DNA from: Leptonema illini DSM 21528
GTDB taxonomy: Bacteria; Spirochaetota; Leptospiria; Leptospirales; Leptonemataceae
Direction: 5' to 3'
Length of the DNA stretch: 64,000 nt
Assembly: GCF_000243335.1 (NCBI RefSeq)
Contig: NZ_JH597773.1
Span: 765,989 to 829,988, forward strand
A model generated the notes under the pieces. That model was not told where the DNA came from. It ran no database searches and saw only the letters and a list, made by a program, of their open reading frames with translations. This document shows positions 42,296-46,585 of the stretch, in pieces; position 1 is the stretch's first letter; each line of letters begins with the position of its first letter. The translations under genes and the position numbers were made by a program.

Positions 42296-43447
42296 ATGAC
42301 ACGATTGAAGCTTAAAAATTTCGGCCAGATAAGAGATGCAGAGGTTGCCTTCGGCGATCTTACTGTTCTTGTAGGTCCGCAGGCGACAGGCAAAAGTCTC
42401 TTCCTTCAGCTCCTCAAGTTGATTATTGACAAAAAATCAATTCATTCAGAATTGAGGATGAGAAACGTGATCTGGGATGGAGATCCAGAGGCCTTTTTGA
42501 ATCTCTATTTTGGAGATGGGATGCACTCGATCTGGAATAAAAAGACAATAGTCCAGGTTGACAGTAAAAAACGAGAGCTAAACTTCTTTGCCCGACCATA
42601 TGCATCCGCTACAGCGGAAGAACTCTTCTTCATTCCGGCTCAGCGCGTGATGAGTCTCAAGGAAGGGATGACGCAAACCTTTTCGGATTTCCGAGCAGGA
42701 GACCCTTATTGCCTCCGTTCTTTTGCTGACACGCTGCACAATCTGGTGCAAAATGAGTTTGCTCAGTTAGAAACTCTGTTTCCAGTCAGTGGTCGTCTTA
42801 ACGAAGCATTCCGGGAACCGATCGAGAAGAACATATTCGGAAAATTCCATTTGCAGACTGACTCAGAAAAGTATCAACGTCGTATCGTCCTGAGGACTGA
42901 AGAGCGTGATCCTTTGCCTTTCCTCGTGTGGTCTGCTGGACAAAGAGAGTTCGTTCCACTGTTGCTCGGTCTCTACTGGCTTATGCCCTCCGGAAAGATG
43001 ACCAAGCGCGACTCGGTATCGTGGGTCGTGATTGAAGAACCCGAGATGGGACTTCATCCCAATGCCATTTCTACGGTCATGTCACTTGTTCTTGAACTTC
43101 TTGCTCGCGGATATCGCGTAACAATCTCCACTCATTCTCCTCAGGTGCTTGATGTTGTCTGGGCTCTCCAGTTTTTCAAGCAGAACGGTGGAACGGTTAA
43201 GGATGTTCTGAATATCTTTGAGCTAAAGAATAACGCAAAAACCAAAGAAGTAGGCACAGCTGCTCTTACGAAAGATTTCAAGGTCTACTTCTTTGGTACG
43301 GATGGCATCGTACGAGATATATCAAATCTCGATCCCGGTGCTGACAACGAGACAGAATCGGGCTGGGGTGGTCTCTCCGGTTTTTCGGGCCATGTCGGCG
43401 ACATCGTGTCGGCCGTGGCAAAACGCGCGCAGAGGGCTGAGGAATGA
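42296..43447 (+). CDS. ABC/OLD-like AAA ATPase of a two-gene cassette
   Basis: 383 residues from the ATG at 42296. Walker A is GPQATGKS (residues 27-34) after the RecF/OLD-type start LKLKNFGQIRDAEVAFGDLT. The ABC signature is VWSAGQREF, Walker B is WVVIEEPEMGLHP, and the switch histidine is ISTHSPQVLDV. There is no TOPRIM domain after the ATPase as in OLD proteins; the C-terminus is short (about 75 residues after the switch). The next gene overlaps by four bases. The cassette is visibly AT-richer than the flanking feo and lipoprotein genes, suggesting transfer. The pairing resembles bacterial defence modules; the biological role is unproven. Confidence 0.85.
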   Translation: MTRLKLKNFGQIRDAEVAFGDLTVLVGPQATGKSLFLQLLKLIIDKKSIHSELRMRNVIWDGDPEAFLNLYFGDGMHSIWNKKTIVQVDSKKRELNFFARPYASATAEELFFIPAQRVMSLKEGMTQTFSDFRAGDPYCLRSFADTLHNLVQNEFAQLETLFPVSGRLNEAFREPIEKNIFGKFHLQTDSEKYQRRIVLRTEERDPLPFLVWSAGQREFVPLLLGLYWLMPSGKMTKRDSVSWVVIEEPEMGLHPNAISTVMSLVLELLARGYRVTISTHSPQVLDVVWALQFFKQNGGTVKDVLNIFELKNNAKTKEVGTAALTKDFKVYFFGTDGIVRDISNLDPGADNETESGWGGLSGFSGHVGDIVSAVAKRAQRAEE

Positions 43448-43926
43448 CGTTCAAGGAGGCGGTTGAGAAGGCAAAGCCCCCTGTGAATACGGCCTATAAA
43501 AGGCAAAAGGATGCCTTGAAAAGAGACCACGCCAGAAAGATTTCCGTCAAAGAAGGAAGCATTTCTGGTAGCATTGATATAGACTCGGCACTGGCAACGA
43601 TCAAGGCCGCCCGGCAACCGCACCGCTGGGATTATGGATTGGGCTATCGTGCAAAGAGCGGAGCGGAGTACGCCGTATGGGTCGAGGTACATAGCGCAGA
43701 AACGTCAGAAGTCACAGAGGTAGAGAAGAAGCTCGCCCGGCTGAAAGAGTATCTCATTTCCTCTGCTCCAGAGCTTTACGACCTCACAACCAAAAGGGGA
43801 AATCCAATCCGATTCGTCTGGCTAGCCAGTAAGGGTATAAACATTCCAAAACACACACAAGAAGCCAGGCGATTACGGCAACACCCGGAGCTTGACATGC
43901 CCCGGAAGCGGCTCGAGCTTCCCTGA
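43444..43926 (+). CDS. Partner protein of the ATPase, unknown family
   Basis: 160 residues with no signal peptide or membrane helix. The N-terminus is basic (YKRQKDALKRDHARKISVKE). The middle has strands with acidic residues (WDYGLGYRAKSGAEYAVWVE followed by VHSA) and a helix (EVTEVEKKLARLKEYL), reminiscent of a degenerate PD-(D/E)xK nuclease core with Glu-x-His in place of Glu-x-Lys. That is only a shape comparison. The C-terminus is basic (MPRKRLELP). Overlaps the ATPase gene by four bases. Confidence 0.75.
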   Translation: MTFKEAVEKAKPPVNTAYKRQKDALKRDHARKISVKEGSISGSIDIDSALATIKAARQPHRWDYGLGYRAKSGAEYAVWVEVHSAETSEVTEVEKKLARLKEYLISSAPELYDLTTKRGNPIRFVWLASKGINIPKHTQEARRLRQHPELDMPRKRLELP

Positions 43927-44906: not shown

Positions 44907-45920
44907 TTACTGCCACCTTCTGCATTCAAACTTCAGGTCCATGTAATGGAAACTCGGTGAATCCAAATCAGGCTTAACCCAAAAACTGTATTCAGTAGAG
45001 CCACCACACAACTCATTCATCGGTATCGAAAAAGGCAGATTCGCTTCCTGAAGCTCCCCATCGACACAGCGCTTCCATTCTTGATGATCGGATTTTTTTG
45101 ATCCGCACTCTGTGCTATAAGTGAAATTTATTCCTGTCGTAGCCTCATCATCGCTGCCGATAGATAGACTTTCTGCATCCGGCAAAACGATTCGGTATGA
45201 CAGGGATGGCTCAATGAGGTTCCACAAATGAAGCCGGGCTGGCTTGATATCTCTTGTTTCGTCCCATACCCCAAAGGCTCCTTGTAGGACAGCAACCTTT
45301 CCTGCCTCATAGCCAGCGAGCTGGCCGGCTGTAGCCATCAACCACTCGCTGGCCTGCAACTCGCATTGACCACGGCCTTTCGTCGTCTTTCTAACGCCGA
45401 TACTTCCCTGAACAACGATCACTGTAAAATCGCGGCCAACATAACACTCAGCATATGGATAACCGGCAGCCGTAAAATAAAGGCACCGGTTGAACTCGGG
45501 AAAAGGACATCGCGATTGGCGGACCTGAATCCTGTACGGCCCATAACGCTTGCTATCCTCATCAAGAGAACGACCGAGGCTTCCTGACTCTATATCTGCA
45601 CGTCTGATCCAACCGCTCGGTCCTGAATGCAAGTCTTCGGAGCCAAGCCGATCATGCAGACTTTCATCCATAATATGAAGCCACTGCTCTTGATCTCCGA
45701 AAAACCTCGGTTCTATCATTAAAGAGAGATCGGCACGCAGGTTCGTGCCTGGTTTCAGTGAAAGCAGGACAGTCGAATCATCCCTCGGTTCACTGAATAG
45801 AGGAACAGGCTCCATTCCGGCAACAAAGAAAGCGGATTCATTATCTTTGATCTCTTTCTCCTCTCGATACTCCGTACACGAAGTCAGCGTGAGAAATGCG
45901 ATCAATAGCCCAAGCTTCAT
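44907..45920 (-). CDS. Lipoprotein with SH3-like segment
   Basis: 337 residues from the ATG at 45920, which opens a lipoprotein signal (MKLGLLIAFLTLTSC). An SH3-like stretch follows (about 35-100: VPLFSEPRDDSTVLLSLKPG). Later regions contain paired cysteines and no enzyme motif. The ATG shares one base with the stop of the upstream LprI-like gene (TGATG), so the two are coupled. Envelope location inferred. Confidence 0.65.
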   Translation of the reverse strand: MKLGLLIAFLTLTSCTEYREEKEIKDNESAFFVAGMEPVPLFSEPRDDSTVLLSLKPGTNLRADLSLMIEPRFFGDQEQWLHIMDESLHDRLGSEDLHSGPSGWIRRADIESGSLGRSLDEDSKRYGPYRIQVRQSRCPFPEFNRCLYFTAAGYPYAECYVGRDFTVIVVQGSIGVRKTTKGRGQCELQASEWLMATAGQLAGYEAGKVAVLQGAFGVWDETRDIKPARLHLWNLIEPSLSYRIVLPDAESLSIGSDDEATTGINFTYSTECGSKKSDHQEWKRCVDGELQEANLPFSIPMNELCGGSTEYSFWVKPDLDSPSFHYMDLKFECRRWQ

Positions 45921-46585
45921 CACGGCATCCGGTAATAGATGCCGCTGAAGTAGGCCCGTACGCCATGATAATAGGAGCACTTCACCTCGCTTACCTCGAT
46001 AGCTCGCTCCCGTCTTAAAAACTGCAGCTCGCAGACATCGTCCCCTGAGCCTGATTTGAAGTAATACTCATCTTTGAGCGGAGGCATGACGCCTTCGAAT
46101 TCACCGACGTGCGACGTCGGGCCTCGAACGGCCTCCAGCTTGAAATGCCACCGGCCGCCCTTCTCTACGATCTGTAAAGAACCGCCGAAGCCGTCGTCGT
46201 AGTTGCCGGCATGGCCCGTCGGCGCCTTCTCTCTCCAGGCCTTCTCTAAATAGTCGATGCGCGAAAGCGTCAGATCGGTCAGGCATTGAACTCGATCGGC
46301 GGGGTTTTCAAGTGACGGATTCATCGCGCACATGGAATCTCTGTATTCGAGCCAGTTGCGCTGTTGTTCGAGTAAAGCCTTCTGGAGAGATGCGGAGAGC
46401 TTCTCCCTGATCTTCGGATAACGCTCGTTCAGCCTGTGATCGGCTGCTGCAAAGGCCTTCGCCTCGCAGAGGATGCGCGTCTCATCTTCGAGCTCATTGC
46501 ATGCCGGCGGAGCGGCATAGAGGTTTGCGGAGAAGAGAAGGAAGAGTAAAGAGATGGATAGGGATAGGATTTCAACTTTATTCAT
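45920..46585 (-). CDS. Secreted LprI-like (DUF1311) protein
   Basis: 221 residues. A signal peptide (MNKVEILSLSISLLFLLFSA) is followed by a DUF1311/LprI domain (about 27-115: CNELEDETRILCEAKAFAAA, LLEQQRNWLEYRDSMCAM). A second half (about 120-221) is beta-rich and ends GVRAYFSGIYYRMP. LprI homologues are periplasmic lysozyme inhibitors in some bacteria, an untested possibility here. Overlaps the genes on both sides. Confidence 0.75.
   Translation of the reverse strand: MNKVEILSLSISLLFLLFSANLYAAPPACNELEDETRILCEAKAFAAADHRLNERYPKIREKLSASLQKALLEQQRNWLEYRDSMCAMNPSLENPADRVQCLTDLTLSRIDYLEKAWREKAPTGHAGNYDDGFGGSLQIVEKGGRWHFKLEAVRGPTSHVGEFEGVMPPLKDEYYFKSGSGDDVCELQFLRRERAIEVSEVKCSYYHGVRAYFSGIYYRMP

Follow-up and report, generated by a model that had tools for sequence, protein, structure and literature searches.

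A two-gene cassette occupies positions 42,296 to 43,926 on the plus strand of the window, by which is meant the whole 64,000-nucleotide stretch of the Leptonema illini DSM 21528 genome that was analysed (contig NZ_JH597773.1, positions 765,989 to 829,988). The first gene encodes a predicted ATPase (A) and the second a small partner protein (B); their reading frames share an ATGA, so the four-base overlap recorded in the first-pass annotation is correct. The genes and the motifs discussed below are located as follows:

42296..43447, plus strand: A, ABC/AAA_15-type ATPase of 383 aa (ATG at 42296 to the stop codon), matching PDC-M56A; proposed sensor or regulator
42365..42400, plus strand: Walker A of the ATPase (VLVGPQATGKSL, spanning residues 24-35)
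42929..42949, plus strand: ABC signature region of A (WSAGQRE, residues 212-218); W212, G215, Q216 and E218 invariant
43025..43060, plus strand: Walker B and catalytic Glu of A (VVIEEPEMGLHP, residues 244-255); E247, E248, P249, E250, G252, L253, H254 and P255 invariant
43127..43138, plus strand: switch (H-loop) of A (STHS, residues 278-281); S278, T279 and H280 invariant
43444..43926, plus strand: B, 160-aa partner (ATG at 43444), matching PDC-M56B, with a PD-(D/E)XK-like model; proposed nuclease effector
43627..43635, plus strand: W62-D63-Y64 of B, invariant; D63 is the proposed metal-binding Asp before a core strand
43684..43692, plus strand: E81-V82-H83 of B, an invariant E-x-H in a core strand, at the place of the usual (D/E)-x-K
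43729..43731, plus strand: K96 of B, invariant; this Lys is in the helix that follows the E-x-H strand and is a candidate for a migrated lysine

The cassette is AT-richer than its surroundings, as was noticed earlier, with a GC content of 49.1% against 54.2% for the window. This rests mainly on A (47.7%), because B has 52.4%; among window stretches of the same size, A ranks at the 0.7th percentile and the whole cassette at the 1.3rd. The cassette had also been placed between core genes, which is true of the left side, where A adjoins a hydrolase gene located behind feoA-feoB, while the right side consists of small genes. Further upstream of the feoA-feoB-hydrolase block are genes which, by reading their sequence, encode ribosomal proteins L13 and S9. 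The block is shared with a relative of the same family (L074), and the right flank differs. Promoter and terminator scans gave nothing above chance.

Both genes have close counterparts in PADLOC-DB. A matched the PDC-M56A model with an E-value of 3e-150 (residues 1-376 of 383, model positions 1-379 of 382) and B matched PDC-M56B at 3.3e-34 (residues 2-147, model positions 7-140 of 151), whereas all further matches of A were at 1.5e-22 or weaker and B had no second match. With near full-length matches to both models, adjacent genes in the same order and no distinguishing feature seen, the cassette is, on sequence comparison, a member of the catalogued candidate defence family PDC-M56. It is a somewhat divergent one, with lower scores than another copy in this genome. 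The cassette can thus no longer be called an undescribed system, and the statement that the partner matches no family is valid for Pfam and NCBIfam, as well as for PHROGs, but not for PADLOC-DB. In Pfam, A was recognised only by generic AAA models (AAA_15/AAA_21), other Pfam and NCBIfam matches being below threshold. A Rit1_C match of B (0.15) was rejected as noise, and nothing usable was obtained for B from the PDB by sequence. PDC stands for phage defence candidate (PMC11514479); these candidates originate from a "guilt-by-embedding" screen, and experimental proof is absent for most of them (PMC12988326), so the listing itself is no proof of function. No paper naming or testing PDC-M56 was found in the literature searched, which did not include preprints, among them the source preprint of the candidates (doi 10.1101/2024.01.29.577857).

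Reading of the DNA around B homologues newly documented 18 intact pairs, always in the order A then B, with the two genes overlapping or a few bases apart (the window pair and loci L028, L029, L030, L072, L045, L046, L018, L013, L032, L033, L034, L035, L036, L037, L038, L041 and L044; the start of B in L035 is uncertain). They come from Spirochaetota, from the phyla of a gammaproteobacterium and of Parapedobacter, and from a plasmid of Verrucomicrobiota. The lack of conservation that the first-pass annotation named as evidence against its proposal was therefore not observed. Two other pairs are damaged (L040 and L042), and two B stretches are solitary (L031 and L039). When A was searched for on its own in about 196 genomes of the same phylum, it turned up in the same four as B, a coincidence with a chance of about 2e-8 if the genomes are regarded as independent; in genome G014, a divergent B of its own lies directly behind A (1.9e-14 to PDC-M56B). 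Pairwise distances of A and B are correlated (Mantel r 0.78, part of which shared host ancestry may explain), and at the level of sequence this correlation shows joint inheritance of the two proteins, not their contact.

Among the irregular loci, the Parapedobacter pair at 3892-4706 of L042 is decayed, with a truncated ATPase and a stop within B, and the same genome has an intact pair. The solitary B at 8200-8649 of L031 has an unrelated-looking N-terminus, and a complete A-B pair is present elsewhere in that genome. Apparent long fusions of B in L034 and L035 were rejected, since they arise when an upstream frame that overlaps A is read through mechanically.

The motifs reported for the ATPase are all intact: Walker A (GPQATGKS), the signature (WSAGQRE), Walker B and the switch histidine (STHS), and their key residues are invariant across 17 homologues. 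The structure model of A (pLDDT 89) consists of a single ABC head and a C-terminal tail of about 50 residues; neither Pfam nor the model revealed a TOPRIM or other second domain, in agreement with the earlier reading. OLD and Gabija GajA have an ABC ATPase domain related to that of A, but they carry a TOPRIM within the same chain, whereas A has none and ends about 50 residues past the ABC core. The label "OLD-like" is thus acceptable in a loose sense, the nearest folds being PtuA, Rad50/SMC and AriA. The best solved fold is PtuA, at Z 16.5 over 275 residues with an rmsd of 4.3; SMC and Rad50 heads follow within about 1 Z unit. PtuA of a retron is also among the matches, and AriA of PARIS (Z 14.6) is within about 2 units. 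Judging from the model, A is an ABC ATPase of the nucleic-acid-associated kind, and its fold does not choose Septu over the other systems.

Seven residues of B (W62, D63, Y64, E81, H83, K96 and W126) are invariant in 17 homologues. In the model (pLDDT 94.4), D63 directly precedes a strand, the strand after it contains E81 and H83, and K96 belongs to the helix that comes next; for one structure prediction, one alignment row, from a plasmid record, was left out. The resulting motif is D-x(n)-E-x-H, and since His83 replaces the canonical Lys in every homologue, B is called PD-(D/E)XK-like rather than a canonical member. PD-(D/E)XK nucleases lead both lists of fold matches of B, although the matches are singly weak: the lowest Foldseek E is 0.025, and the highest Z of 6.8 (rmsd 3.4 over 125 residues) is below the tool's caution line of 8. 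Card1/Can2, EndoMS, EcoO109I, BamHI, FokI and HamA are among the leading ones. A BFVD fold search gave no clear match. Neither an HNH domain (Pfam, NCBIfam, PADLOC, PHROGs) nor TOPRIM/DUF4435 (Pfam, NCBIfam, PADLOC) was matched, and the invariant residues spell no HNH motif. By these weak matches, B resembles a divergent nuclease of the PD-(D/E)XK-like type. The suggestion of a degenerate nuclease is in line with this resemblance and with the invariant D63 and E81. Histidine is used by some restriction-fold enzymes, for example Vsr, which is a lead rather than a test.

The first-pass annotation had proposed a pairing of an ATPase with a small effector of the defence type, and the two-gene module is supported by the conserved pairing and by the PDC-M56 match. 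The cassette is probably a defence module in which A acts as a sensor and B as a nuclease-like effector, akin to Septu or PARIS. In such a module, A, as an ATPase of the SMC/Rad50/PtuA type, would form a dimer or oligomer with ATP and bind B, holding it inactive. An infection cue, possibly phage DNA ends or an anti-restriction protein, would alter the state of A, so that B is freed or activated. B might then use its putative D...E-x-H...K site to cut nucleic acid, be it DNA of the phage or an RNA of the host (a tRNA, for example), and this cutting would stop phage production.

Among known systems, Septu (PtuAB) and the PtuAB retrons share with the cassette the layout of an ATPase and a small nuclease, putative in the case of B, but PtuB is an HNH nuclease. 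PARIS (AriA-AriB) shares the ABC ATPase, AriA being among the fold matches of A, the separate effector gene and the location of some loci near restriction-modification (R-M) genes, and differs in that AriB is a TOPRIM nuclease and the fold predicted for B is another one. In PARIS, AriB is held by AriA as long as no anti-restriction protein, for example Ocr, is present (PMC11455837). The cassette might likewise be a toxin-antitoxin guard, in which A restrains a toxic B and the loss or inhibition of restriction frees it, so that the module would protect R-M loci and might be addictive.

Two loci speak for such a guard. In L044 (7033-14851), the pair is inserted in a type I restriction operon in the order HsdR-HsdS-A-B-HsdM, and B and HsdM overlap by 4 bases. 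In L036 (5583-13909), a type III methyltransferase and HEC-07 lie ahead of A-B, and a UvrD-like helicase (686 aa) follows directly; a gene of equal length (686 aa) takes the place of this helicase in L037 (2764-4824). However, most pairs, including both pairs of this genome, are away from recognised R-M genes, and the other loci checked have metabolic, transport or unknown neighbours rather than defence islands. Linkage to defence genes is thus seen in two of the loci read and is not general. B is also not predicted to be a TOPRIM protein. A guard of the PARIS kind, for which the AriA match of A speaks as well, seems unlikely, though somewhat less so than the other alternatives.

Alternatively, B might be a catalytically dead nuclease fold that serves A as a DNA-binding or adaptor subunit, the pair being a small DNA-binding machine of the SMC type. 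The constant replacement of the usual lysine and the resemblance of A to Rad50/SMC heads fit this explanation. However, D63, E81, H83 and K96 are invariant despite a mean identity of 35% in the B family, as would rather be expected of a working site, and no other effector gene recurs beside most pairs in the loci checked. An inactive B is considered improbable, slightly more so than the guard, and a sensor ATPase with a nuclease-like effector remains the preferred reading.

The family is rare and its spread patchy, reaching about 1-2% of the genomes sampled from three phyla. With the seed genomes counted, B homologues occur in 4 of 198 genomes for the own phylum, in 4 of 398 for a gammaproteobacterium's phylum and in 6 of 395 for the phylum of Parapedobacter; two narrower samples yielded them in few genomes. 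Within the same family, 16 further sampled genomes contained no B, and the 15 of them that were searched for A contained none. No copies were found in phages or viral contigs, and one pair is located on an Opitutaceae (Verrucomicrobiota) plasmid typed as mobilizable. The second pair of this genome (C1:945072-946656; L028, 8055-9696) is only 42% (A) and 34% (B) identical to that of the window, a level that points to an independent acquisition more than to a recent duplication. The patchy spread, the low GC content and the plasmid copy mark the cassette as a two-gene operon that is self-contained and moves horizontally. A role outside defence, in which an ordinary ATPase of housekeeping or repair works with an accessory protein, might explain the generic AAA_15/AAA_21 match of A and the metabolic neighbours at most loci, but it is very improbable for a pair which is rare, patchy and horizontally moved, is lacking in the rest of the family's sampled genomes, has a plasmid copy, occurs in an R-M setting in some genomes and matched no housekeeping system.

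The second pair of this genome adjoins a gene of a HerA_C-type ATPase.

A design similar to that of the cassette is found in two further catalogued candidates, HEC-02 and PDC-M47, in which an A-like ATPase gene is immediately beside a small partner in 17/17 loci examined. The partners read carry a canonical D...E-x-K, whereas B of PDC-M56 has His for Lys. One divergent B matched HEC-02B weakly (0.0093) and another PDC-M47B (0.0059). When B was aligned with HEC-02B and PDC-M47B by hhalign, the D and E-x-[HK] motifs were in register, with probabilities of 0.6% and 2.6%, respectively; since these profile matches are not significant, the comparison establishes a similar design and supports no claim that the partners have one ancestor.

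PDC-M56 is listed in a defence database as a bare candidate, no mechanism for it was found in the literature outside preprints, and the one proposed here can be tested residue by residue. The proposal names candidate catalytic residues in B, places A with the PtuA/Rad50 ATPases and points to a restriction operon as the setting in some genomes. If it is true, a PD-(D/E)XK-like branch would be added to the ATPase-plus-nuclease systems, and the three candidates PDC-M56, HEC-02 and PDC-M47 would be joined by a common design. A bolder and rather doubtful extension is that B is an active nuclease with His substituting for the PD-(D/E)XK lysine, or with a lysine shifted to the next helix, and that PDC-M56 is a guard sensing attacks of phages on restriction systems. 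Together with Septu (HNH) and PARIS (TOPRIM), it would then form a third line of ATPase-effector systems.

Elsewhere in the window, at 45920-46585 on the minus strand, is a gene that we take to encode a secreted protein of the lysozyme-inhibitor type (LprI/DUF1311).
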